A stretch of 64,000 nt of DNA, taken from contig PGXW01000013.1 of assembly GCA_002839355.1 (NCBI GenBank), positions 124,001 to 188,000 on the forward strand. Direction: 5' to 3'. Positions 14,520-50,347 of this stretch are shown piece after piece. The notes under the pieces are model-generated. The model saw only the letters and a program-made list of their open reading frames with translations. It searched no databases and was not told the DNA's origin. The stretch's first letter is position 1, and each line of letters begins with the position of its first letter. Both the position numbers and the translations under genes were made by a program. This DNA is from Spirochaetae bacterium HGW-Spirochaetae-2. GTDB lineage: Bacteria; Spirochaetota; Spirochaetia; Sphaerochaetales; Sphaerochaetaceae.

Positions 14520-15794
14520 TCAACTGTGGCGAGATATCTTTCCCCTGTAATGCTGTTTCATGGCGGCCTCGAAGGAAGCGTTGTCGGGGTATGAGTAACC
14601 GAAAACCGGTTCCCACAGTTGCGGCAACTCCATGCAGAGGTAGAAGAACGGTCCGTTCCCGCTTTTCCAGGATTCCGGAAAACAGTTGTAGGCATGGGAA
14701 AACATCTGTTGTTTGATTTCCAGCGGATACGAGTACTTGCCAGCCGTTTCGGTCAGTTCCATCTGCAGGATACGGCTGGGTCGGCCTGAACCCCGCAACT
14801 GTTTGAGGACCTCCTTGGTGAAGGTGAGTGTCCCGAGTGAAACCATGACAACTTCTCCGGGAGAGAACCGTGTTGTGATTTCCTCAACAACTGTCCGGTA
14901 TTCTTCTTCCCATCCGGCGAAATGGACCATGGGATGCATATGGAAACCGATCGGCATACCGCAGTCGGCAGCCTTTCGGGCAGCTTCAAACCGTTTTTCC
15001 AGGGTAGCGGTCAGATGCTCTTCCTTGTGTATGATTGTCGGCGCGTTCAATGACCATGTGGCGACCATGTTGTTGGGGTACGACGTTTTTCCGAGCCAAT
15101 CGGTCCTACCCGATTTCGTCTTCAATTCGAGAACAACATGGGGATGTTGGGCTGCGAAGCTTGACAAGGCATCGAGTATACCGTGGTCATTTCCCCACAT
15201 CAGCGAGTCGGAGGATTGTCCCGTTCCGATATGCCAGGCCCCTTCGGGCAACTCCAGGGTCTCCAGCCGCTGGGCAAGGTTCGCCGCGAAATGGATCTCC
15301 TCCTGGTGATAGAAGGATTGGATCGAACAGTAGGAGCAGGCGAAAGCGCATTGTTGGACCACGTCGAGGGTCAGCAGATTGCAACAGCGGGTCTTTTCTC
15401 CGGAGACGGGACAGGGGCATCGGCCGAGAAGCCGTTCGTCTCCAAGGGTCTCGATGTGTGTCGCCTTGCTTGTCATCCTAGGTTTCCTGGTGAAGTCGGA
15501 ATAGTCCGTGGGATTCTTGCGAAGCGAGTCTATTTGTTGGATAACGGCATCAATGATGGCCTTATTACGAGGCTTTCCAGATAATTTAGCTGCGACATCC
15601 TCGTTCCAGAGCATCGACAATGATCCTTGATCCCAGAGGGAGAGGTCGATCGACAGTTCGATCAACATACGCATCTGCTGGAACGAGAACTTGTGCCGAC
15701 GGGAAAGTTCGAGGAGAAACCGACGGTCTTCATCCCGCATCGAGGCGGCCAACGGATATGTCGCAAGGAACTGTTGCTCGGATTCGGTGTCCAT
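14520..15794 (-). CDS. Spore photoproduct lyase-like radical SAM protein
   Basis: 424 residues. The radical SAM cluster motif is CAFACSYC (CxxxCxxC), within DVVQQCAFACSYCSIQSFYH, which matches the SPL family rather than most other radical SAM groups. An upstream CPCPVSGEKTRCC segment adds cysteines, and the C-terminal half has LELTETAGKYSYP-like and FPESWKSGNGPFFYLCMELP elements typical of SPL-family proteins. SPL repairs thymine dimers in endospores, but SPL relatives also exist in non-sporulating bacteria with unknown roles. It is divergent from uvrC (46 bases), suggesting a DNA-repair setting. The promoter -10 ends 7 bases before the ATG. Confidence 0.82.
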   Translation of the reverse strand: MDTESEQQFLATYPLAASMRDEDRRFLLELSRRHKFSFQQMRMLIELSIDLSLWDQGSLSMLWNEDVAAKLSGKPRNKAIIDAVIQQIDSLRKNPTDYSDFTRKPRMTSKATHIETLGDERLLGRCPCPVSGEKTRCCNLLTLDVVQQCAFACSYCSIQSFYHQEEIHFAANLAQRLETLELPEGAWHIGTGQSSDSLMWGNDHGILDALSSFAAQHPHVVLELKTKSGRTDWLGKTSYPNNMVATWSLNAPTIIHKEEHLTATLEKRFEAARKAADCGMPIGFHMHPMVHFAGWEEEYRTVVEEITTRFSPGEVVMVSLGTLTFTKEVLKQLRGSGRPSRILQMELTETAGKYSYPLEIKQQMFSHAYNCFPESWKSGNGPFFYLCMELPQLWEPVFGYSYPDNASFEAAMKQHYRGKISRHS

Positions 15795-24203: not shown

Positions 24204-24955
24204 GTGTTGTCACCTTCAGAAAAATCTTCACCAAAGTATATTCTGCGGGCATCTATATTCTGCAACAGCTCTTCCCGTTTTCCGCTGGCGAGTATTTCTC
24301 CCTCATTGATTATGTGGGACTGGTGAGTGATTGCCAGCGTATCGCGAACGTTATGGTCCGTGAGGAGTATACCGATTCCCTTGCTTGCCAATTTCTGGAC
24401 CAATTTCTTGATTTCATAGACAGCCTTCGGATCGATTCCCGCAAACGGCTCATCGAGCAGGAGGAACTTGGGATTGCTGCCGAGGCTCCTGGCTATTTCC
24501 GTCCGGCGCCGTTCACCACCGCTGAGAGTGTATCCGTACTGTTTCCTGATACCGGCAATGCCGAATTCCTCCAAGAGGTCCTCCACAACCGCCTGCTTCT
24601 CCTTCTTGTCCAAATCGTCCCGGGTTTCCACAACCAGGCGGATGTTGTCCTCGACCGACAGTTTCCGAAAGATCGAGGGGTCTTGGGGAAGATAGGAGAG
24701 TCCGAGACGCGAGCGCCTGTACATGGGGAGATCCGTCACGTCGTGGCTGTTCAAGAGGATTGTTCCGGCATCGGCTTTGATGAATCCCACAATCATATAG
24801 AACATGGTTGTCTTTCCAGCTCCATTGGGACCGAGCAAGCCGATGATTTGACCGGACTCCATGCTGAACGAGACATCCTTGACCACGAGTTTGCGCCCGT
24901 ATTGCTTGGCCAGGTTCCGGATATGGAGCGTTGCCTTGGAGCGTGCATCAACCAT
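24200..24955 (-). CDS. lptB: Lipopolysaccharide export ABC transporter ATPase
   Basis: 251 residues. Walker A GPNGAGKTT, Q-loop LPQDPSIFRKLSVEDN, signature LSGGERRR, Walker B FLLLDEPFAG and the switch His in LLTDHNVRDTL are all present and have the LptB form. It powers extraction of lipopolysaccharide or a related glycolipid from the inner membrane with LptFG (not in this window). The ATG at 24955 is preferred to a TTG two codons earlier; it overlaps the lptA end by 8 bases. The presence of LptB, LptA and LptC shows the organism has an outer membrane with an Lpt-type export path. Confidence 0.95.
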   Translation of the reverse strand: MVDARSKATLHIRNLAKQYGRKLVVKDVSFSMESGQIIGLLGPNGAGKTTMFYMIVGFIKADAGTILLNSHDVTDLPMYRRSRLGLSYLPQDPSIFRKLSVEDNIRLVVETRDDLDKKEKQAVVEDLLEEFGIAGIRKQYGYTLSGGERRRTEIARSLGSNPKFLLLDEPFAGIDPKAVYEIKKLVQKLASKGIGILLTDHNVRDTLAITHQSHIINEGEILASGKREELLQNIDARRIYFGEDFSEGDNT

Positions 24956-25601
24956 GGACAATCCCTTCTATCGAACCTTCCATGATTATCTCGTCCGTTT
25001 CGAGGTTGACGGTAGTGGCACTGGCCTGGTACGTATCGCCTTTCCATGCAATCGAGGTATTCCCGACTAGTGCCAGTCGCATGGTGTTCCTGTTGTATTC
25101 GATACTGTCGGCGCGGCATACCATGGGACCCGATCCGGTATGTCGCAACAGTTTCGCTGCGATCTGCAACTTCATGGTGCCATCGCTACGGTTGTACGAC
25201 AGGTATGCGCCGCTTGCGATCACCTCGTTCTCCAGGTCTTGTACCTCCACCCAGCCGTCGACCAGCAACTGTTCGGTCTCACGATCGAAGGAGATGCTGG
25301 TACAGGTGATGACGATGTTGTTCTCCGTATCGGTTATGGTGACCGATCCGGTTCCGACCATGTAGCGTGCATTCGGTCCGATAAGTTCTATGCTCTGGGC
25401 TTGGAATTCGATACTGCCGGTCGATACCATGGCTCCTTGGGTGAGCATGATGGTTTCGCGTCCTTCGCGCATGACTGCACGGGTGTACCCGCCTTTGAAG
25501 GAGATCGGTTCAGCCGCTGCCAATACTCCCGCCGAAGCGGACAGGCACACAAGTACAAGGAGGTTCCGTATGGTCCGATTGATAGTCGTGCGTCTAGTCA
25601 T
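24948..25601 (-). CDS. lptA: LptA/OstA-like periplasmic lipid-transport protein
   Basis: 217 residues. A signal peptide (RTIRNLLVLVCLSASAGVLAA) leads to an OstA/LptA beta-jellyroll made of repeated strands (for example NNIVITCTSISFDRETEQLLVDGWVEV). The family bridges inner and outer membranes and hands over lipopolysaccharide. The start at 25601 overlaps the lptC stop by 8 bases and has GGAAGG upstream; a longer frame to 25688 lies inside lptC. At 217 residues it is longer than enterobacterial LptA (about 185). Position before lptB supports the assignment. Confidence 0.85.
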   Translation of the reverse strand: MTRRTTINRTIRNLLVLVCLSASAGVLAAAEPISFKGGYTRAVMREGRETIMLTQGAMVSTGSIEFQAQSIELIGPNARYMVGTGSVTITDTENNIVITCTSISFDRETEQLLVDGWVEVQDLENEVIASGAYLSYNRSDGTMKLQIAAKLLRHTGSGPMVCRADSIEYNRNTMRLALVGNTSIAWKGDTYQASATTVNLETDEIIMEGSIEGIVHG

Positions 25602-26142
25602 ACGTAAGCCTTCCTTCCTCCAGATACATGAATTCGAATGTCGCCGTGGAGAATTCTCCGCGGAATCCGGTTCCTCTGAGTATATCATGTTCTTTGCTGA
25701 CGATGGTCACCAAAGTATCCGAATCACCCGCCATGGTCTTGCCCCCATGATTCCACGCGAGCGAGACTGCCGAAAGCGTGAAATCATCGCGATGGTTGCG
25801 GATTTCCACCCCCCCGGTCATCACGACATCGTTCGTCTCGGTGTCGACCACGGCGTTTCCGAACGAGCCGGAGAAAAGGAGCACTCCCGCCGTATCGTCC
25901 TGGGTGAAAGTCGCGTTGTCGATGTACGCTTCACCGGCTTCGCGGTACAACTCGATGGTTTGGGCCTCGATTCGGATGGGGGAGGCCCCCTCCATGCCCA
26001 GCACATAACGGGTTTGCTCCAGACGCATATCGGGGAATGCCGCCGGTCGCCGGTCTCCTGTCGCTTCTTGTGGTGCGAACGAGCAGGATGAGAAGACGAT
26101 CGTCGTGATGAGGAGCAAGAGCGGCACCCCGATTCTTTTCAA
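25594..26142 (-). CDS. lptC: LptC-like lipoprotein, lipopolysaccharide export
   Basis: 182 residues starting at a TTG (26142) with AGGAG seven bases upstream. The signal MKRIGVPLLLLITTIVFSSCS carries a lipobox with Cys20, so this LptC is a lipoprotein rather than the usual membrane-anchored form. The segment MRLEQTRYVLGMEGASPIRIEAQTIELY and later strands match the LptC/OstA-like fold, which passes lipid from LptFG to LptA. It lies directly before lptA and after rseC. The assignment rests on weak sequence likeness plus gene order. Confidence 0.75.
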   Translation of the reverse strand: MKRIGVPLLLLITTIVFSSCSFAPQEATGDRRPAAFPDMRLEQTRYVLGMEGASPIRIEAQTIELYREAGEAYIDNATFTQDDTAGVLLFSGSFGNAVVDTETNDVVMTGGVEIRNHRDDFTLSAVSLAWNHGGKTMAGDSDTLVTIVSKEHDILRGTGFRGEFSTATFEFMYLEEGRLTYD

Positions 26143-26152
26143 TATCGTACTC

Positions 26153-26572
26153 CTAGTTGGTCCGTGTTTCGATTACGCGGGTAATCTTGGGAACATATTC
26201 TGCGGCCTTTGCCTTGGAGAATATCCGGCTTATCATGAATCCTACGGCGATACCACCGATTCCACTTATGATGCGTACTCCTTCACCTACGTCCGCAACG
26301 AAGGCGGAGGGGAGGTAATACCCCACGGGAAAGAGCAGGACTGGTACCAATAGGGCGACAAACCCCGCCAATACGGTCTTGCCGGGTGGTAGGTACAATT
26401 CCACCATATCTCCCACGGAGATGGTCTGTTCGGTATCGTTCTGGGCGACAAACGTCTTGCCCTTGGTTGCACAGAAGGAGCCGGCCTTGCAATTCTCGCA
26501 TCCGGCCGTTTGGCACATGACGGTAACCACACCGTTGTCCTGCAGCGAAAGTACTGAAGCATGTTCGTACAT
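26153..26572 (-). CDS. rseC: SoxR-reducing system protein RseC family
   Basis: 139 residues. The N-terminal half has a Cys cluster CQTAGCENCKAGSFC typical of RseC/MucC, which may hold an iron-sulphur centre, and the C-terminal half has two membrane helices (TVLAGFVALLVPVLLFPVGYYL and IISGIGGIAVGFMISRIF). In other bacteria RseC acts with the Rnf complex to reduce SoxR or modulates RseB. No rnf genes are near, but a flavin-based electron transfer locus lies 15 kb away. GGAGG precedes the ATG; it follows ymdB by 17 bases. Confidence 0.88.
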   Translation of the reverse strand: MYEHASVLSLQDNGVVTVMCQTAGCENCKAGSFCATKGKTFVAQNDTEQTISVGDMVELYLPPGKTVLAGFVALLVPVLLFPVGYYLPSAFVADVGEGVRIISGIGGIAVGFMISRIFSKAKAAEYVPKITRVIETRTN

Positions 26573-41661: not shown

Positions 41662-41913
41662 TTATGATGTTCCATTTTCAGGATGCTTGTCTTTCCACCG
41701 TTTCAGGAACACCTGGTAGGCATAGACATGGCCTTGGATCTCGGCGTTCTTGATTTCACCCCTTCCGACCCAATCCTGGCCTTGGTAGACCAACAGATGG
41801 TGCAGTTCTTGCTCAATATCCCGGATATCGAACTTGGGACTCTTGGAGCGCAAGGCAAGATGGTCGAGCATAAGCTCGAATTCCGAATCAAGTGTATGCT
41901 GTTCTATAGACAT
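41662..41913 (-). CDS. Small conserved-looking protein of unknown function
   Basis: 83 residues, acidic at the start and basic at the end, no membrane segment and no cysteine. It is rich in aromatic residues toward the C-terminus (HVYAYQVFLKRWKDKH). AGGGG lies 9 bases before the ATG. It lies 91 bases downstream of the polyprenyl synthase gene on the same strand and may share its transcript, placing it at the edge of the electron-transfer locus. No function can be given. Confidence 0.6.
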   Translation of the reverse strand: MSIEQHTLDSEFELMLDHLALRSKSPKFDIRDIEQELHHLLVYQGQDWVGRGEIKNAEIQGHVYAYQVFLKRWKDKHPENGTS

Positions 41914-42004
41914 TCAGGTACCCCTAGGTGGTTTTCCCAGACGAAGGGAGTGCAAGAGAACGGAATCCCTTGGGTCGAGCATGTACCTAGGGCTCCGATA
42001 TCGT

Positions 42005-43006
42005 TCACTTTCTTCGATCGGACAGTTTCTCGAACATACCCAGAAGGATAGTGGAAACCTGTTCGTTTCCCAAAGCATGGATGTCCTTCAGCGCCCGTTC
42101 GGAGTATGTTGTAGCAAGAATCTTGGATTTTTCCAATCCTCCCAGCTCGATCACCCGACGGACAGCACGCGCCACATCCCGTTTGGACAGTTTCGCTTTT
42201 CCGGTGATCCGGTGCAGAAGCTGGTCCTCCAGAGGCAGGGACTTTTCAATTTCCATGGCTTCCAACAGGGGTAGGGTTGGAATACCACAGAGCAAATCCT
42301 TACCTGGTTCCTTGCCTAATTTTTCCTTGTCACCATCATAATCGAGAATATCGTCCTGGATCTGGAAGGCCATGCCCATATTGTACCCGATACGGTGCAT
42401 GCGTCTTTGGACACACTTGTCCGACTGTGCAACCGCTGCCCCTGCATACGAGCTCAAGGCGAACAGCGATGCGGTCTTTCCTGCGATCCTTCGAAGATAG
42501 GTGGCAGTCGAAATGGTAAAATCTCCCTGCCCGGCATCCTGCTCCAATTCGCTTTCACATAACCTGCTGAACGCATTCGATACTGCCGAAGCTTCGAGGT
42601 CTCCTTCGCTGCCTCCGACCAACGCCATGGCTCTGGATAGGAGATAATCTCCTGCCAATACTGCTTGTTTCGCACCGGTCTGGGCATACAAGGTGGGTAT
42701 GCCCCTGCGTGTCCGGGCATCGTCGATGATATCGTCATGGACCAAGGAGGCCATGTGGATCATCTCCAACACACTGGCGATACGCTTGACCTCGCCCCTT
42801 CGCTCGGGTTTCCCCAAACGTGAGCCGATCAACACCAAGGCGGGGCGTAACAGCTTGCCGCTGGTTCGCACCTGGGCGGCAAGCAACTGACGGACAAAAG
42901 AGTGGGAACGATCTATCGCGTCCTGTATCAACGAACCGACCTCTTCAAGCTCCGCGGCAATTTCCGGTTCGTCTTTCCAAAATTCGTCTTTCCAAAATTC
43001 ATTCAT
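42005..43006 (-). CDS. Polyprenyl diphosphate synthase (DmkB-like)
   Basis: 333 residues of the trans-isoprenyl synthase family. The first aspartate-rich motif is HDDIIDD and the second is QIQDDILDYDGD, with GKLLRPAL and the RR that bind diphosphate. The residues before the first motif are small (MASLV), which suits a long-chain product. It elongates isopentenyl diphosphate to the side chain of quinones. It follows ndh2 by two bases in the same operon, as DmkB accompanies Ndh2 in the Listeria electron-transfer locus. The N-terminus has a tandem FWKDE-FWKDE from a 15-base duplication. No Shine-Dalgarno sequence is obvious. Confidence 0.9.
   Translation of the reverse strand: MNEFWKDEFWKDEPEIAAELEEVGSLIQDAIDRSHSFVRQLLAAQVRTSGKLLRPALVLIGSRLGKPERRGEVKRIASVLEMIHMASLVHDDIIDDARTRRGIPTLYAQTGAKQAVLAGDYLLSRAMALVGGSEGDLEASAVSNAFSRLCESELEQDAGQGDFTISTATYLRRIAGKTASLFALSSYAGAAVAQSDKCVQRRMHRIGYNMGMAFQIQDDILDYDGDKEKLGKEPGKDLLCGIPTLPLLEAMEIEKSLPLEDQLLHRITGKAKLSKRDVARAVRRVIELGGLEKSKILATTYSERALKDIHALGNEQVSTILLGMFEKLSDRRK
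42970..42999. repeat. 15-base tandem duplication at the start of the polyprenyl synthase gene
   Basis: Units at 42970-42984 and 42985-42999 are identical and in frame, giving two FWKDE pentapeptides right after MNE. Confidence 0.9.
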
Positions 43007-43008
43007 GA

Positions 43009-45096
43009 TTAAAGGGCTGCATCCTTCTGCTTGGCGATCCGTCGCTCCATCTGCTTGCGGGTGAACTCGGGCTCATCCATGAAGAAATAGAGTTTCTTGG
43101 CGATAGGGGTCTTGTTCCACAGTTTCTTGAGATATGGCATTACCCAATAGTCAAGACCAAAGGCCCGTCCGGCTCCACCCAGCATGACGATCGACACCGC
43201 CATGTACCAGAGGATTTCCTTTCCTGCAAGAGCTCCAATGAGGAACATGATCGACAATCCGATCGAAACGATCGCTGCGGGGAAGGTGAACAGACCACCG
43301 AGGAAGCACAACCCGATACCCACTTCCGCCAAGACAATCATGACCTGGAACAGATATGGCGCGGAGGCAACAAAGGTTTCGTTTATCCAAGTATAGATGG
43401 CAAGCGGCTGATCCAACAATGGTGGGGCGAATTGCTTGACCTTGGTGACCACTTCACCAGCGACCTCCGCACCCCATGTGCTTGCACTGCCGACTGCTTC
43501 GACAACCGGTTCCGCAGCCCACGTACTGGCCGAGCCGACTGCTTGTGCCACAGGTTCCACATAGGAAGCGGAAGCAACAGAAACACTCCCGACAGCCTCG
43601 ACAACCGGTTCTGCAGCCCACGTACTGGCAGAGCCGACAGCTTCTGCGACAACCCCCGATGCGGCGGTTACGGTATCACTTCCAGCACCCGGCAACGGCC
43701 CCCAATAGACTTTCCTCCCGGTCGTGTCAGTGAGCCAACCCTCGACAATCTTGTTCCCACCTTCGATCAACCACATGACACCGAGGTACATGCGCAAGAA
43801 GACAATCCAGTATGATGGAACCTTGTAGGCTGCCATGCCACCGATAAGGGATCTGCGGTGCTTGATGTTGAGGATCTCATGCTTGAAATAGGTCCACGCC
43901 CCATTCACACCACACACGCCGAACTGGTAGTACATGTTCACCAGGTGCTTCACCGCCTGGGCGAAGAAACCGGATAGGGCCATGCCCATGTTATAGGAGA
44001 CGGCATAACGACCACCGATCGACACCATGTACCCATGGAAGGCCGACTTGAAGGGTGCCACCGGTTTTGTGGGCAGACCCAATTCACTTCTGATGGCATG
44101 GATAATGCCATCTGCGGCTGTAGCTGCAGTCTGTTCGGCCGCCTCGACGATCTGTGGGAGAGCCTTGCCATCTTCCATGAACCAGATTCCGTCTCCAGCG
44201 AGGTATACATTCTCATGGTCAGGGGATTGCATGAACTCGTTGACCTTCTTGCGTTGGACTTTTCCGTCGGTCAAGGACAGCGAGTGACAGAAGGTGGTCC
44301 CGCGAACACCGCAGGTCCAGACCAATGTCTTGGTCTTGATGACGGTGCCGTCCTTTATGGTGAAACCGTTCTCATCGGCATTGACAATCAGACTGTTGGT
44401 CCGAATCTCGACGCCCTTCTTCTTCATATAGGCGATTGCCTTGTCGCGCGGTTTGTCGGGCAACATGTTCAGGATATTGCCGAGGGCCTCGACGTTCATG
44501 AGCTTCACTTCGTTGAAATCGACTCCGTATTCCTTGCAGAGGATCGGCAGCCATTCGATGAGTTCTCCAACGAGTTCCACTCCAGTGAATCCGCCACCTG
44601 CGACGACGAATGTCAACATCTCCTTGCGGATCGTCTCGTCCTTCTCGTACGCGGCAGCCTTGACCGTATCGATCAGGTGACGCTTGATACGGCAGGCATC
44701 CTCAAGACTCCATAGATAGAAGGAGTGGTCCTTGACTCCGGGGATATTGAAGTCGGTCGATTCGGCACCGGTTGCTATGATGAGCTGATCGTATGGATAG
44801 CTGGCCCCGGCACCCTCGAGCACCTGTTTCTGGAAATCGATGTTCTTGATCTCGTCGCGAATGACATTGACCATTTTTCCGGCAAATATCCTATCGAAGG
44901 AAATCTTCACCGATGCCTCGTCGACACGATTTCCGGCAACCTCATGCAATTCGGTCATGAGAATGTGGTGTCTGTGACGATCGATCAGAGTCACCTCGAC
45001 TTGGTCCTTCATCTTCTTGAAAGCTTTGTGCAGCCTCTTAGCCGCATGGACTCCGGCATATCCTCCGCCAAGAATCACAATCCGTTTCTTATCCAT
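43009..45096 (-). CDS. ndh2: NDH-2-type NADH dehydrogenase fused to a DoxX-like membrane domain
   Basis: 695 residues. The first 400 are a type II NADH dehydrogenase: FAD site VILGGGYAGVHAAK, NAD(P)H site VVAGGGFTGVELVGEL, second FAD motif VYLAGDG. Residues about 425-450 (WIVFLRMYLGVMWLIEGGNKIVEGWL) begin a DoxX-like membrane domain that continues after residue 565 with several helices. Between these lies a 70-residue low-complexity stretch with a repeated AVGSASTWAAEPVVEAVGS. NDH-2 oxidises NADH and reduces quinone without pumping. AAGGAG precedes the ATG. The operon with the polyprenyl synthase is read divergently from apbE; the gene set matches flavin-based electron transfer. Confidence 0.9.
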   Translation of the reverse strand: MDKKRIVILGGGYAGVHAAKRLHKAFKKMKDQVEVTLIDRHRHHILMTELHEVAGNRVDEASVKISFDRIFAGKMVNVIRDEIKNIDFQKQVLEGAGASYPYDQLIIATGAESTDFNIPGVKDHSFYLWSLEDACRIKRHLIDTVKAAAYEKDETIRKEMLTFVVAGGGFTGVELVGELIEWLPILCKEYGVDFNEVKLMNVEALGNILNMLPDKPRDKAIAYMKKKGVEIRTNSLIVNADENGFTIKDGTVIKTKTLVWTCGVRGTTFCHSLSLTDGKVQRKKVNEFMQSPDHENVYLAGDGIWFMEDGKALPQIVEAAEQTAATAADGIIHAIRSELGLPTKPVAPFKSAFHGYMVSIGGRYAVSYNMGMALSGFFAQAVKHLVNMYYQFGVCGVNGAWTYFKHEILNIKHRRSLIGGMAAYKVPSYWIVFLRMYLGVMWLIEGGNKIVEGWLTDTTGRKVYWGPLPGAGSDTVTAASGVVAEAVGSASTWAAEPVVEAVGSVSVASASYVEPVAQAVGSASTWAAEPVVEAVGSASTWGAEVAGEVVTKVKQFAPPLLDQPLAIYTWINETFVASAPYLFQVMIVLAEVGIGLCFLGGLFTFPAAIVSIGLSIMFLIGALAGKEILWYMAVSIVMLGGAGRAFGLDYWVMPYLKKLWNKTPIAKKLYFFMDEPEFTRKQMERRIAKQKDAAL

Positions 45097-45158
45097 GTGC
45101 CCTCTCCTTATCCCTTGGTCCTAAAACCGTTTAATTTTCTGCGAAATTGATCTCCGAA

Positions 45159-45210
45159 CACGACGATTCGGTCGTGACTGGTTGCCGTTTCTCGCATAAT
45201 GCGATATATC
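45159..45210 (+). promoter_or_regulatory. ndh2/apbE divergent control region with two palindromes
   Basis: CACGAC-N6-GTCGTG (45159-45176) lies next to a candidate apbE promoter, TTGCCG (45182-45187), 17-base spacer, TATATC (45205-45210). Within the spacer is TCGCATAATGCGA (45192-45204), a palindrome around one central base. Both could be operators for coordinated control. Confidence 0.5.
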
Positions 45211-45227
45211 ACTTACATAGTAGTACC

Positions 45228-46289
45228 ATGAAACATACAAACATTGCAATTCAGTTCTTTTTTATCGGAATGATTTTTCTTATAATCTCAACGATTTCTT
45301 GCTCGAAGCCGAGCGGAGATGTTGTTGTCGATCCGCAATCCCGTTCCGAGCTCATGTTGGGGACCGCCTGCCGTATCACCATATACGACAAGCCGTCCGA
45401 AGAAGCCTTCGAAGCGGCGTTTGCCCGTATCGCCGAAATCGAGGCAAGGATGAGCTTGCATCTCGATACAAGCGAGATCGCCGCGATCAACCGTGCCGCC
45501 GGAATCGGTCCGGTCGTTGTCTCCGACGATACGTTTCGGGTCGTGGAGAAAGCGCTCGAGGCAGCCCGCTTGAGTCACGGGGCATTCGACCCGACCGTCG
45601 GGCCGCTGGTTAAGGCATGGGATATCGGAGGAGACAATCCCCGTCGTCCTTCCCAAGCTGAGATTGACCGGCTGTTGCCGCTTATCGGATATGATCGTGT
45701 GGTTCTCAACGAACAGGACCATTCGATCGAGTTGCTCGATGCCGGAATGATGCTCGATCTGGGTGGTATCGCCAAGGGGTATGCCGCTGACGAAGTTGCC
45801 GAGATATTGGTTGCCCACGGAATACACAAGGCGATTGTCAACCTTGGTGGAAACGTATTGACCGTAGGCTCCCGGGTCGATGGAAGCGCGTGGCGCATCG
45901 GTATCCAGAATCCTGAGGCTGAGCGGGGTGGCCATGTCATGGTCGTTGGACTGGACAGTCAGACGCTGGTTACCAGTGGACCCTACGAACGGTATCTCGA
46001 GGTTGATGGAATAGTCTACCACCATATTCTCGATACGGAAACGGGGTATCCGGTCAAGACGGATATTACCAGTGTGAGCATCATCACAGCCGAGTCCTTC
46101 TTGGCCGATGCATTGTCGACAGCTGTGTATTCGCTTGGACTACAGGAGGGAATGGCTCTGATCGATTCCATGGATGGTGTGGAGGCGGTGTTCCTGGATT
46201 CCATGAACACGATCCACCTTTCCCGGGCATTGAGGAACGGATCCGTTTCCTACACCATCTCCGATGCAAAGTTCAGCGTTATCGATTGA
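45228..46289 (+). CDS. apbE: FAD:protein FMN transferase lipoprotein (ApbE, FmnB-like)
   Basis: 353 residues. Lipoprotein signal peptide with FLIISTISC (Cys25 lipidated). The ApbE core shows [62 protein letters not shown] and the [11 protein letters not shown] metal-binding end. It transfers FMN from FAD to a Thr or Ser of target proteins outside the cytoplasm. Its obvious target is the three-repeat FMN-binding lipoprotein at 49 kb. No Shine-Dalgarno sequence is visible before the ATG at 45228. Read divergently from ndh2. Confidence 0.95.
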
Positions 46290-46295
46290 AATGAT

Positions 46296-46913
46296 TCAGA
46301 GTGTGGGAAGAATTCCGCTTTGACCGAGGACAAACAATGCCCAAAGCACGATGAGGTGGAAGGCATTCACCAATAGTGCCGATCCCGTCGCCCTGGTGCC
46401 AAAAGTATGGGGGCTGTCGTCCGTAATTGGACTTCCGCTATCGGTTGCTGGCGCAGAGAGGGCTATTAACAATCGGTCGATGGCCGGGATAAACGGTCTC
46501 TTCGGGCTGATCGATCTCCAACTTGTCGTGATCCTTTCGAAATAATAGAATTGCAATGAGACAAGTTTTCCCAACCGGCCGGGAAACTGGGGTCTGCCGG
46601 TGACCATATAGTGGGACAGGTAGAGCAGGGCGATCAGCGTGAAGGCCTTGCGCGCACCCAGCAGCAATGCTCCTGCAGTTACGGGGAAGTTGCCTATTGA
46701 GAACAAGTGCAATCCATGGGGCTGCAACAGATGTGCACTGGAGACACTCACCAATAGGATGATGTTGGGAAGTAGCCGGAACCGTCTTCCGTGGGTTAGT
46801 GCCAACATGATCACATAGCCGGCTTGGATCGCAATGCCGACACTTGAGTCTTGCAGCAATATCGAGGGAAGTGCGAGCAATCCCATGTAGAGGCGGATAT
46901 TGGAAGACTTCAT
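46296..46913 (-). CDS. Membrane protein resembling EcfT/CbiQ transporter subunits
   Basis: 205 residues with four to five hydrophobic helices, then a soluble loop (PFIPAIDRLLIALSAPATDSG) and a final helix (ALLVNAFHLIVLWALFVLGQSG). The part ALLLGARKAFTLIALLYLSHYMV and then LVSLQFYYFERITTSWRSI recalls the coupling region of energy-coupling-factor T subunits, but it is shorter and lacks a firm Ala-Arg-Gly motif. Its ATG overlaps the Gx-transporter stop (ATGA), so the two proteins likely work together. EcfT-like proteins also occur in flavin-based electron transfer loci, where they may move flavin. Assignment tentative. Confidence 0.55.
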   Translation of the reverse strand: MKSSNIRLYMGLLALPSILLQDSSVGIAIQAGYVIMLALTHGRRFRLLPNIILLVSVSSAHLLQPHGLHLFSIGNFPVTAGALLLGARKAFTLIALLYLSHYMVTGRPQFPGRLGKLVSLQFYYFERITTSWRSISPKRPFIPAIDRLLIALSAPATDSGSPITDDSPHTFGTRATGSALLVNAFHLIVLWALFVLGQSGILPTL

Positions 46914-47449
46914 GAGCGTTTCTCCAACTCGGCCCGATACCAGGATGAAGTCTGTACGAATTGCTGTGCGAATATCCCAAGGATTATCGAGGTGATCAGT
47001 CCTACTATGAGGAAGGGCGGCGCGATCAGTCGGGCCGCAGCACCGAACAATATGAGTTGGCTCAGCAACAGCTGGACACAATTGCTGGCCATGGCTCCAC
47101 CGATGCTGACACCGACCAGACTTATCCAACGCTTTCCGAACCGATACAACAGGTACATGACCAAGGCGCTCGCGATGGTTCCTCCGAGGGAAAAGAGGAT
47201 GATATAGGAGAATATGGTGCCGGTGACCAAACCCTGGCCCAATACCTTCAAGATCGCCAACATGATATATTCGCGATCCTTGAGGATTCCCAGACCGATG
47301 ATGAGCGGAAGGTTCGCCAAGCCGATACGCATGAAGGGGACTGGTTTGGGTATGAGGTATTCAACTGTGGAAAGGAAGAGGGCGAAGGCAGCTAGCAGGG
47401 CGACAAATTCGATGCGTGCGTACCGGTTGGATTCAGAATGCCGTATCAT
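46910..47449 (-). CDS. Gx transporter family membrane protein (EetB-like)
   Basis: 179 residues of the Hpre_diP_synt_I / Gx-transporter family, misnamed heptaprenyl synthase component I in older annotation. The signature IPKPVPFMRIGLANLPLIIGLGI is near the N-terminus, and five to six membrane helices follow, resembling S components of ECF transporters. In Listeria the homologous EetB is needed for flavin-based extracellular electron transfer. The ATG at 47449 has GGGAGG before it and lies 17 bases inside the preceding gene. Confidence 0.85.
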   Translation of the reverse strand: MIRHSESNRYARIEFVALLAAFALFLSTVEYLIPKPVPFMRIGLANLPLIIGLGILKDREYIMLAILKVLGQGLVTGTIFSYIILFSLGGTIASALVMYLLYRFGKRWISLVGVSIGGAMASNCVQLLLSQLILFGAAARLIAPPFLIVGLITSIILGIFAQQFVQTSSWYRAELEKRS

Positions 47450-47807
47450 CGACACCTCCCTCTTGGGCTGCCATGGTACCTTCCACCAGTATGAATACGT
47501 CGTTTGGTAGACAGATTATCCAGTCTCCTGGTCTCGAGACCCATCCGGCGGCGATACAGACCTTGTTCCTGCAATCGGAATCATGCACATGAACTTTCCC
47601 ATCGCGAATTTCCATGGTTGTCTCGCCGACAGGACCGTAAAATGTGGCAAAGGTGTCGACGGACAAGTCGTAGACCCATTCCTTGTTTCCCGCACGGACA
47701 TGTACCTCAGGTTTTCCCGTAAAGTCCCCGTAGGAGTTGAAGCTGGAAATGACAATCGCCAACGAGATGACCAATAGTGCGATATCGCCCAACTTGAACT
47801 GCTTCAT
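47433..47807 (-). CDS. NusG domain II-like membrane-anchored protein (EetA-like)
   Basis: 124 residues. One N-terminal membrane helix (LGDIALLVISLAIVISSF) and then a beta-rich extracytoplasmic NusG-II domain with VHVHDSDCRNKVCIAAGWVSRPGDWIICLPNDVFI, the family signature with its two cysteines. Homologues stand next to Gx-transporter genes; the Listeria counterpart is EetA. It is first in the operon with the EetB-like and EcfT-like genes and overlaps EetB by 17 bases. A TTGACA/TACCAT promoter ends 6 bases before its ATG. Confidence 0.88.
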   Translation of the reverse strand: MKQFKLGDIALLVISLAIVISSFNSYGDFTGKPEVHVRAGNKEWVYDLSVDTFATFYGPVGETTMEIRDGKVHVHDSDCRNKVCIAAGWVSRPGDWIICLPNDVFILVEGTMAAQEGGVDDTAF

Positions 47808-47813
47808 GGGCGC

Positions 47814-47842
47814 ATGGTAGCAGGTTGTCTTTCGCTTGTCAA
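47814..47842 (-). promoter_or_regulatory. Promoter of the EetA-EetB-EcfT-like operon (leaderless type)
   Basis: On the minus strand a perfect -35 TTGACA (47842-47837), 17-base spacer and TACCAT (47819-47814), 6 bases from the ATG at 47807. Confidence 0.65.
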
Positions 47843-48024
47843 AGTAATGCGACGCGCCTCTTCCGAACACCTTACGTGCCGATGGCGTGTCATGAATTCG
47901 AAGGTCGGATTATACCCTGTCTACCCGGTTGCAACACCAGCGACGAGTTGACCGGGGACGGGAAATGGGTCTCACGGAGAAAAGTCTAAAAATTTTCGTA
48001 ATTCGGAAAAAATATCTTGATTAG

Positions 48025-48066
48025 AATCGATAAAGTAATATATTATCGATTTAACCTAATATACTA
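48025..48066 (+). promoter_or_regulatory. Control region of the unknown lipoprotein gene: inverted repeat plus shared 12-mer
   Basis: AATCGATAA (48025-48033) and TTATCGATT (48043-48051) are perfect 9-bp inverted copies 9 bases apart. They abut CCTAATATACTA (48055-48066), which holds a TATACT -10 box and is repeated exactly at 49007-49018 before the FMN-binding lipoprotein gene. No good -35 is present, so an activator or repressor site is likely. The rest of the 280-base gap 47808-48087 shows nothing else clear. Confidence 0.65.
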
Positions 48067-48087
48067 CCAAATGGGGAGAGATTGATT

Positions 48088-48900
48088 ATGAAAAAAATGA
48101 CTTGGCTTTCTATGGTTGCGATCGTTCTTTTGGTCGCATTCGTTGCAATCGGCTGTTCCAAGCCCGCTCCTGCAGCCCAGGCTCCAGCAGCACCCGCTGC
48201 AGCAGCTCCTGCCGCACCCGCAGCACCCGTTTCCGATGGTTCCCAGGATCTCAAGATCAGCTACCGCTTGAACACAGCTGCTCCAGATGCCGAGAACTAT
48301 TTCTCCTTTGCCGGCAATATCCGCTACATGGCAGCTGAAAAAGACCATGCCGATGCGACCACCGGTGCTTCTGCCCTCGGTTCCACCCACCTGTTCAATG
48401 CGTACCTCTACGACGTTGAAGGGAAGGCCACCTTGTCCAGCGGACTTCGCGGCTTGTTCCTTTTCGGTGTCACACCCTATGATCAGATCGTGGTCGACAA
48501 CCTCCAGGCTTCCAAAGCTGCCGATGGTACGATCACCATCCAGTATACACACCGTGGTACAGCCTACCGGATCACGACCGACAAGTCGGGCAAATTGCTC
48601 TTCCCCAATGGTGGATTCGAGATGCGTGCCATCGGTTACATCGTTGGTGGCGGACCCCAGGTCATCAGCAAGGATTTCTCTGCTGATGGTACCGCGGCAA
48701 CCGTCGATTATGCAAAGGTTTGGGACAGCAGCGTAGCTGGTGGGAAATTGGTCGATGACAAATCTACCGCCAAGACCGGCAACATTGTGAAGAATATCGC
48801 GGCAGCCGATGCCAAGTACTTCTTTGACGGTGCCTTGCAGGCAACTCTCGAGAACAACATCCTGACAATAAACGGCGCATTGACTGCAGTCCACCGCTAG
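48088..48900 (+). CDS. Lipoprotein of unknown function in the electron-transfer locus
   Basis: 270 residues. Lipoprotein signal ending VAFVAIGC (lipidated Cys about residue 23), followed by an Ala/Pro-rich linker of about 25 residues. The rest is a soluble domain, mainly strands, with a single Cys only in the lipobox. I recognise no family and no FMN-binding or haem motif. GGGGAGAG lies 7 bases before the ATG. It shares a promoter 12-mer and the same linker style with the FMN-binding lipoprotein 150 bases downstream, so both may sit on the same membrane face and work together. A strong terminator separates them. Confidence 0.8.
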   Translation: MKKMTWLSMVAIVLLVAFVAIGCSKPAPAAQAPAAPAAAAPAAPAAPVSDGSQDLKISYRLNTAAPDAENYFSFAGNIRYMAAEKDHADATTGASALGSTHLFNAYLYDVEGKATLSSGLRGLFLFGVTPYDQIVVDNLQASKAADGTITIQYTHRGTAYRITTDKSGKLLFPNGGFEMRAIGYIVGGGPQVISKDFSADGTAATVDYAKVWDSSVAGGKLVDDKSTAKTGNIVKNIAAADAKYFFDGALQATLENNILTINGALTAVHR

Positions 48901-48922
48901 GTCGGGCACAAGCCTCCTTATG

Positions 48923-48951
48923 GCCGGCCTCCAGTTTGGGGGTCGGTTTTT
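48923..48951 (+). terminator. Rho-independent terminator
   Basis: CCGGCCTCC (48924-48932), loop AGTTT, GGGGGTCGG (48938-48946), with two wobble pairs, followed by TTTTT. Confidence 0.85.
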
Positions 48952-49004
48952 CTATATCCGCAGGGGATATATTTCTTGGCTTGCACCCTTGCAAAAGTAG
49001 CTTG

Positions 49005-49043
49005 CTCCTAATATACTATACGCCGATATCGATATATTAGGAG
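49005..49043 (+). promoter_or_regulatory. 11-bp inverted repeat covering the -10 box and ribosome site of the FMN-binding lipoprotein gene
   Basis: CTCCTAATATA (49005-49015) and TATATTAGGAG (49033-49043) are perfect inverted copies 17 bases apart. The left arm overlaps the likely -10 box (TATACT, 49012-49017 region), the right arm contains the AGGAG ribosome site for the ATG at 49052. The spacer holds another palindrome, CGATATCG (49024-49031). Confidence 0.7.
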
Positions 49044-49051
49044 TGATTCAC

Positions 49052-50347
49052 ATGAGAAGATTACGTATTGCATTGTTGGTGCTTGCACTTGCAGTGACCG
49101 TGTTTGCCATGGTCGGCTGTGCAAAGGAAGCTGAACCTACAGCACAGGCACCATCTGCTGCCCCCGCCGTTGTTCCTGCTCCGGCTGCAACTCCTTCCGT
49201 GCCATCGGGCAACTATAAGGATGGTATCTATTATGCCATGGATGAAGCATTCGGTTCTTCCGGCTGGAAATATGCGGTCACTATAACCGTTGAGGGTGGA
49301 AATATTGTCGATGTCGACTGGAATGGCTTGAATGTCAATGCCGGTGTTGACAAGAAGACCTACGACCGGGCCGGCCGATACAACATGGTCAAATTCGGTG
49401 GAGCACAGGCCGAGTGGTACCAGCAGGCCCAGAAGGCCGAGGCCCACCTGATCAAGACTCAGGATCCGAGAGCGATCACCTACACCGATGAATCGGGACA
49501 TACCGATGACATCGCGGGTGTTTCTATCCATGTGGTGGAGATGTTCGAATTGGCCGAGAAGGCGCTGGCCGCCGGTCCTGTAGGTGTCGGAATGTATGAG
49601 GATGGCGCCTACTTTGCGATTGCCGATGAATATCCTTCCTCTGGTTGGAAGGAATATGTCTCGCTTACCGTAATCAACGGACGCATTGCGGCTGTGAACT
49701 GGAGTGCGGTGAACAAGAACGGGGACGACAAGAAGCAATATGACAAGGCCGGCAAATACAACATGGTCAAGTTTGGTGGAGCACAGGCCGAATGGTACCA
49801 GCAGGCTGAGAAGGCCGAAGCCCATTTGATCGAGATCCAGAATCCGACGTTGGTGAATTATATCGACGACGAAGGGCATACCGATGACTTCGCCGGTGCA
49901 TCGATCCATGTGGATGCATTGTTCGAGCTGGCCTTGGAGGCCCTTGCCGCAGGACCGGTCGAACTCGGTCCGTACGCCGACGGTGGCTATTTCGCTTCCG
50001 ACGATGCCTTCGGTTCATCTGGTTGGAAGGGTAATGTTTCCCTCTTCGTGAAAGATGGAAATATCGTGAATGTATATTGGAGTGCTGTGAACGAAGCCGG
50101 TGACGACAAGAAGGTCTACGATATGGAAGGCAAATACAACATGGTCAAGTTCGGTGGTGCGATTGACGAATGGTATGTCCAGGCGCAGCGTGTCGAGAAT
50201 TATCTGCTCGAGACCCAAGACCCCAAGAAGATCACCTACAAGGATGACAATGGACATACAGACGATATCTCCGGTGCTACAATCCACGTGAACGATTTCT
50301 ATGCTTTGGTCGAAAAAGCGTTCGCTGCTGGTCCCAAGAAGTATTGA
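49052..50347 (+). CDS. pplA: Lipoprotein with three FMN-binding repeats (PplA-like)
   Basis: 431 residues. Lipoprotein signal with FAMVGC, an Ala/Pro-rich linker, and three repeats of an FMN-binding domain (about residues 50-172, 180-298, 306-427). Each repeat has a DG-Y motif, GWK and YNMVKFGGA, and ends in the flavinylation motif: DIAGVS (Ser158), DFAGAS (Ser284), DISGAT (Thr410), exactly 126 residues apart. ApbE attaches FMN by a phosphoester to this Ser/Thr, so up to three flavins are expected. Listeria PplA, with two such domains, passes electrons to iron or extracellular acceptors. Its gene ends in a terminator. Confidence 0.92.
   Translation: MRRLRIALLVLALAVTVFAMVGCAKEAEPTAQAPSAAPAVVPAPAATPSVPSGNYKDGIYYAMDEAFGSSGWKYAVTITVEGGNIVDVDWNGLNVNAGVDKKTYDRAGRYNMVKFGGAQAEWYQQAQKAEAHLIKTQDPRAITYTDESGHTDDIAGVSIHVVEMFELAEKALAAGPVGVGMYEDGAYFAIADEYPSSGWKEYVSLTVINGRIAAVNWSAVNKNGDDKKQYDKAGKYNMVKFGGAQAEWYQQAEKAEAHLIEIQNPTLVNYIDDEGHTDDFAGASIHVDALFELALEALAAGPVELGPYADGGYFASDDAFGSSGWKGNVSLFVKDGNIVNVYWSAVNEAGDDKKVYDMEGKYNMVKFGGAIDEWYVQAQRVENYLLETQDPKKITYKDDNGHTDDISGATIHVNDFYALVEKAFAAGPKKY

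Follow-up and report, generated by a model that had tools for sequence, protein, structure and literature searches.

Predicted flavin-based extracytosolic electron export encoded by a conserved locus in a diderm spirochaete

Positions 41662-50347 of a 64,000-nucleotide stretch of DNA from Spirochaetae bacterium HGW-Spirochaetae-2 (hereafter the window) hold a gene locus that quite probably encodes a flavin-based extracytosolic electron-export chain working like the extracellular electron transfer (EET) system of Listeria. The locus is confirmed as real and well conserved, both the identity of its genes and their synteny having been computed. That the transfer would be 'extracytosolic' is well supported, and transfer to extracellular acceptors is unproven. 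The locus type itself is already known; new here are the pattern of predicted auxotrophy for 1,4-dihydroxy-2-naphthoate (DHNA), the presence of Rnf and Nqr in the same genome, and a lipoprotein family termed Lip272.

Results

Gene content and conservation of the locus

Gene families were tested with Pfam and NCBIfam over the whole interval, which was re-read gene by gene. Every gene named in a sequence-only reading of this DNA proved to be an open frame matching its family, except the EcfT-like gene, which was recognised by fold match only (Table 1). Two genes had been passed over, those of an 83-residue protein and of Lip272. The same reading described four transcripts with divergent and convergent joints, and this layout stands: NDH2-PPS-83aa (minus strand; PPS, polyprenyl diphosphate synthase), ApbE (plus), EetA-EetB-EcfT (minus) and Lip272/PplA (plus). 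The last of these may be two units, given a terminator-like site with a 12-bp stem at 48922-48948 between the Lip272 and PplA-like genes. Rfam at its gathering threshold gave no RNA element, such as a flavin mononucleotide (FMN) riboswitch, near the locus.

The relatives of the locus place the host in the Sphaerochaetaceae, the closest contig being that of 'Spirochaetae bacterium HGW-Spirochaetae-4' (NDH2 95% identical). The complete ApbE/EetA/EetB/EcfT/PplA/Ndh2/PPS set is found in 9 of the 20 family loci compared, and every fetched family locus having ApbE on site (9/9) retains the whole set. The loci of one further genus (g3) read PplA-NDH2-PPS-83aa, without ApbE, EetA or EetB nearby. Among cultured relatives, Sphaerochaeta halotolerans has Ndh2, PPS, PplA and the gene of the 83-residue protein. 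Chance is excluded as an explanation for the gene grouping by this synteny. The Ndh2-PPS pair extends beyond the family to Spirochaetota at large, including Gracilinema and Breznakiella, and to Clostridia.

The NADH dehydrogenase and its neighbours

As in Listeria-type EET, an NDH-2 with a C-terminal membrane domain (Ndh2) adjoins the polyprenyl synthase. Its best PDB matches are solved NDH-2s, and full-length homologues are found throughout the Spirochaetota and among Clostridial proteins from EET-type loci, which bears out the homology to the Listeria proteins that had been claimed. Residues ~470-553 form a repetitive linker, rich in Ala, Ser and Val, which splits the membrane domain and differs in length among relatives; Tandem Repeats Finder (TRF) detected no DNA-level tandem repeat in it. 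The fusion is carried by about 37 of 119 family genomes. In a quick tree without bootstrap, Spirochaetota and Bacillota Ndh2 sequences fall on opposite sides of one branch (98 in SH-aLRT, a Shimodaira-Hasegawa-like approximate likelihood ratio test), and recent transfer from Firmicutes is therefore not supported.

The polyprenyl synthase has both DDxxD motifs, and its best NCBIfam model is HepT (203 bits, under the cut-off). In 16 of the 20 fetched family loci it is adjoined by the gene of the 83-residue helical protein, which travels with Ndh2. This protein has the invariant pattern ...YxGQDWxGRG...K..EI.G..YAY in the family loci and an AlphaFold2 (AF2) model with a predicted local distance difference test score (pLDDT) of 90.5. 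It belongs to no Pfam or NCBIfam family, and the model has no PDB fold match at E<=0.001, so that an attempt to read its function from the fold led to no assignment.

A quinone predicted to be finished in the cell

No DmkA-like prenyltransferase had been seen in the window, correctly: the genome's only UbiA-family gene, which is DHNA-prenyltransferase-like (DmkA-like), sits on another contig (C11) and rules out that DmkA is missing from the genome. Several Spirochaetota and Clostridia relatives have the DmkA-like gene inside the Ndh2-PPS locus (loci L091, L110, L117, L122, L128 and L129). Among the 119 family genomes, DmkA-type UbiA and the Ndh2 fusion are both present in 35, Ndh2 only in 2, UbiA only in 2 and neither in 80. 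The four exceptions are incomplete genomes (68-86% complete), and at genus level both genes occur in the same 8 of 22 genera.

Statements of absence refer to profile searches on a draft genome that is 99.8% complete in 86 contigs. MenD was absent from all 119 family genomes at E<=1e-30, both weak matches in the host's own genome being acetolactate-synthase-like, and the latter genome gave no match to MenB or to MqnA/MqnD (MenC/E/F/H and MqnC/E were not searched). A genome-wide search for dmkA and quinone genes, as proposed in the sequence-only reading, was accordingly positive for dmkA and negative for these genes of DHNA synthesis. That reading had counted the lack of any DHNA or quinone pathway against itself, and this came true in part, the DHNA pathway being undetected and the DHNA prenyltransferase present. 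Since the enzymes that would finish a naphthoquinone are kept and the enzymes searched upstream of them are not found, DHNA is probably acquired, by a predicted uptake from neighbouring microbes. Lactiplantibacillus plantarum uses exogenous DHNA (PMC10746273).

In the window's genus, dmkA is preceded on the same strand by a run of TetR, RND/MMPL-type, LolA-like and DUF1302 outer-membrane-barrel genes. The run is full in two loci (L176 and L177), and the host's own contig (L167; C11, 17778-19909) shows DUF1302-dmkA at the contig end. The run may have to do with the movement of lipids or quinones to the outer membrane. The dmkA genes of other genera lack the run, and the DUF1302 barrel was rejected as a general outer-membrane conduit, only the window's genus having it beside dmkA among the loci examined.

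Flavin export and attachment

The ApbE of the locus is the only one in the genome. Its nearest solved protein is Listeria FmnB (7esa; 264 bits, best of 13), ahead of the treponemal ApbE (211 bits). The EetA-like protein matches PF07009 (NusG_II) with 76.9 bits (cut-off 29.6; E 2e-21), a domain which we take to be that of EetA. The EetB-like protein matches PF07456 ('Hpre_diP_synt_I') with 125.6 bits (cut-off 30; E 2e-36), which is the EetB family (PMC9973259). The start codon of the EcfT-like gene (ATG) overlaps the eetB stop. Its product has no Pfam match, and the nine best Foldseek PDB matches of its AF2 model (pLDDT 75) are all transmembrane (T) chains of energy-coupling factor (ECF) transporters, namely those for folate, pantothenate and cobalt (prob 0.84-1.00, E from 3e-3; TM-scores modest, 0.39-0.59). 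On this model, the predicted protein is confirmed by fold as an ECF-T subunit. In Listeria, EetB and the ECF-T-like FmnA were shown by experiment to export flavin adenine dinucleotide (FAD) for FmnB (Rivera-Lugo et al., PMC9973259). An ECF-A ATPase is encoded with a CbiQ-type ECF-T subunit on contig C50, and could power the EetB/EcfT exporter.

Further FMN_bind proteins of the genome are encoded in an Nqr cluster (contig C47) and an Rnf cluster (C37), and there are two small ones besides. The NqrF of the Nqr cluster scores above its cut-off. Neither Rnf nor Nqr structural genes are found at the locus, which lies on contig C52. Since the genome has both complexes and only one ApbE, the locus probably also matures RnfG and NqrC, and presumably supplies FMN to the two small proteins as well; it would then serve more than EET. 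The Nqr cluster (L168:7000-10895) reads B-C-D-E-F, and no NqrA was recognised among the adjoining open reading frames. A protein of the RseC/MucC family, whose members are often associated with Rnf/Rsx complexes, is encoded in the window at 26153-26572 (minus strand), far from the genome's Rnf cluster.

Two lipoproteins as candidate flavin carriers

The PplA-like lipoprotein scores 96 bits with the NCBIfam PplA model and 23.5 bits with RnfG, a clear preference for PplA. FMN_bind (PF04205) is matched over the cut-off (E 4e-6), and the nuclear magnetic resonance structure 2kzx covers one of its FMN domains (E 4e-37). The motifs of the three domains are DDIAGVS, DDFAGAS and DDISGAT, and 59 motif sites in 20 family PplAs divide, unusually, into 44 GV[ST] and 15 GA[ST]. 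The accepted ApbE consensus is D-x-x-[ST]-G-A-[ST], in which Ser is accepted (review, PMC12052999).

Of 393 Spirochaetota genomes, 55 encode a homologue of Lip272. Lip272 combines a signal peptide or lipobox with a conserved motif of the ApbE type, D91-A-T-T-G-A-S97, as looked for in a flavinylation substrate. An alignment of 40 sequences, reaching down to about 30% identity, has Asp91, Ala96 and Ser97 in every one, Gly95 and Ser/Thr94 each in 38, and the whole motif D..[STG]GA[ST] in 37. The protein matches no Pfam family (including DUF2271 and DUF3570) and no PDB sequence, and its profile shows no similarity to those of the PplA FMN domains. A diverged FMN_bind domain was considered and rejected, hhalign against the PplA alignment giving 13% probability over 8 columns. 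Homologues adjoin Rnf/Nqr-type membrane genes, as read from sequence, in two loci (L162 and L166) and Ndh2 in a third (L099). The homologue in L099 (9087-9817) lies immediately upstream of Ndh2 and is broken into two overlapping frames by a frameshift or sequencing error. Lip272 is of the kind of ApbE substrate that Meheust et al. (PMC8238504) expected still to await identification beyond DUF2271 and DUF3570. Motif and export signal together make Lip272 a candidate new flavinylation substrate that would carry covalent FMN.

Table 1. Genes of the locus, with positions in the window
Feature	Position	Strand	Basis
83-residue soluble protein, function unassigned; three-helix fold, last gene of the NDH2-PPS operon	41662..41913	-	synteny + AF2
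Long-chain polyprenyl diphosphate synthase (PPS), DmkB-like	42005..43006	-	PF00348 E 9e-60
Ndh2, type II NADH dehydrogenase fused to C-terminal membrane domain	43009..45096	-	PF07992 E 7e-39
ApbE flavin transferase lipoprotein, FmnB-like; the genome's only ApbE	45228..46289	+	PF02424 E 7e-93
ECF-T-like transmembrane subunit (EcfT-like, FmnA-like)	46296..46913	-	AF2 model + Foldseek
EetB-like ECF-S subunit ('Gx transporter'), predicted FAD exporter	46910..47455	-	PF07456
EetA-like protein, one N-terminal hydrophobic segment + NusG_II domain	47433..47807	-	PF07009
Lip272, 272-residue lipoprotein of an unnamed spirochaete family, candidate flavinylation substrate	48088..48900	+	motif conservation
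PplA-like lipoprotein, three FMN_bind domains	49052..50347	+	PF04205 + NCBIfam PplA

Elsewhere in the window, the gene at 14520-15794 (minus strand) encodes a radical SAM protein with a 55-bit match to spore photoproduct lyase. To our knowledge, spirochaetes are not a group known to sporulate.

Discussion

The electron path that we propose is modelled, at each electron step, on the Listeria system. Ndh2 would oxidise cytosolic NADH and pass the electrons to a (demethyl)menaquinone, of which the polyprenyl tail would be made by the synthase of the locus and joined by the DmkA-like enzyme to DHNA that the cell would take from its community rather than make. The quinol would then reduce covalent FMNs on periplasm-facing lipoproteins, namely the three-domain PplA-like protein and probably Lip272. 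A search for a cytochrome bd quinol oxidase was negative, other quinol outlets not having been searched, and PplA-type proteins are therefore the best candidate to date for the quinol outlet. FAD would leave the cytosol through the EetB/EcfT-like ECF complex, driven by an ECF-A ATPase whose gene lies elsewhere, and the genome's only ApbE would attach FMN and would then also have to mature RnfG and NqrC. The last acceptor would be either periplasmic, such as a reductase, or beyond the outer membrane.

Several observations weigh against this chain. Every member is assigned by gene content and comparison. The PplA score lies under the model's cut-off of 325 bits and marks a distant homologue, and its first FMN domain has Val for Ala in the flavinylation motif across the family; the same substitution cut flavinylation to about 50% in a Klebsiella model (PMC12052999). 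The DmkA-like protein (186 bits against NF004749, cut-off 277) and the ECF-A ATPase (211 bits) likewise fall under their cut-offs, and the significance of the co-occurrence of UbiA and Ndh2 (Fisher 3e-25) is inflated by shared ancestry. A pathway making DHNA (MenD, MenB or MqnA/D) is among the parts not detected.

It may instead be that the locus is mainly a hub for flavin export and flavinylation that matures Rnf and Nqr, with Ndh2 and PplA as accessories and the electrons staying in the membrane or periplasm. The single ApbE in a genome with Rnf and Nqr clusters would fit such a hub, as would the co-localisation of eetB with Rnf in 572 genomes of Clostridia (PMC9973259) and the genus g3, where ApbE and EetAB lie away from the Ndh2-PplA locus and the two halves are evidently separable. 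We nevertheless consider it unlikely, for the genera with the full locus conserve the ApbE/EetAB half between Ndh2 and PplA with no Rnf or Nqr gene beside it, and the ApbE is nearest to FmnB. The chances are more evenly balanced for a chain that ends in the periplasm, where PplA and Lip272 would pass electrons to an oxidoreductase of the periplasm or to a small diffusible acceptor without extracellular transfer. The diderm setting assumed for this spirochaete was right, the locus shows no outer-membrane conduit, and the genome encodes other small FMN_bind proteins. LptC/LptA-like genes at 24948-26142 (minus strand), just under the Pfam cut-offs, lend weak support to a diderm cell with lipopolysaccharide-type transport. 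On the other hand, extracellular iron is what the nearest characterised systems reduce, and some lipoproteins of spirochaetes are exposed on the cell surface.

As to Lip272, an ordinary structural lipoprotein, in which the GAS motif is part of the fold and no flavinylation site, appears doubtful but deserves some weight. Three of the 40 sequences depart from the motif (DATSHAS, DTASSAS, DVAAGAS), most homologues are not beside ApbE or Ndh2, and composition shuffles yield the motif in 0.6% of cases, so that a single occurrence is not negligible. Against a structural role stand the invariance of D, A and S in all 40 sequences down to about 30% identity and the homologues adjoining Rnf/Nqr-type genes and Ndh2. 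More far-reaching, and in our judgement just short of an even chance, is the proposal that Lip272 is the founding member of a new class of periplasmic electron carriers flavinylated by ApbE, unrelated to FMN_bind, DUF2271 and DUF3570, which would serve several donors (Ndh2 here, Rnf/Nqr-type complexes elsewhere), and that the chain runs on naphthoquinone head groups from other microbes, so that exporting electrons would be a cross-fed trait across much of a diderm family.

Published accounts treat the Listeria-type flavin chain as Gram-positive, and the searchable literature holds a single passing mention of a spirochaete member (PMC7074142). If the chain works in diderm spirochaetes, two testable questions follow: how electrons get across the outer membrane, and whether Sphaerochaeta-type bacteria, called 'fermentative', respire with quinones that their neighbours make. 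The PplA proteins with Val in the motif put the accepted flavinylation consensus to the test, and the Lip272 family, if flavinylated, would be a third non-FMN_bind substrate class for ApbE.

Comparison with known systems

The flavin-based EET locus of Listeria monocytogenes, reportedly described by Light et al. in 2018, shares with the spirochaete locus an Ndh2 with membrane domain, DmkB, FmnB, EetA, EetB, an ECF-T (FmnA) and a PplA-like multi-FMN lipoprotein. In contrast to Listeria, the spirochaete is diderm, its transcripts are divergent and convergent, and DmkA is encoded outside the locus. Its PplA has three FMN domains with GVS, GAS and GAT, Lip272 and the 83-residue protein are additional, DHNA synthesis is not detected, and Rnf and Nqr are present in the same genome. 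The flavin-based EET (FLEET) system of L. plantarum (PMC10746273) likewise keeps the DHNA prenyltransferase and prenyl synthase and misses the DHNA pathway, but this lactic acid bacterium is monoderm, and its DHNA dependence is experimental where that of the spirochaete is predicted. The multi-flavinylated proteins and the DUF2271 and DUF3570 substrates (PMC8238504) share with the present lipoproteins the multiple FMN domains and the [ST]GA[ST] motif outside the FMN_bind fold, respectively, whereas Lip272 differs from these substrates in matching no Pfam family. The gene types co-localised in the module of Cad (cAD1), apbE and NADH dehydrogenase (PMC7074142) recur here, and a spirochaete representative was already listed. 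While cad-apbE was found in that survey only in genomes without rnf, the genome described here has both Rnf and Nqr as well as the locus.

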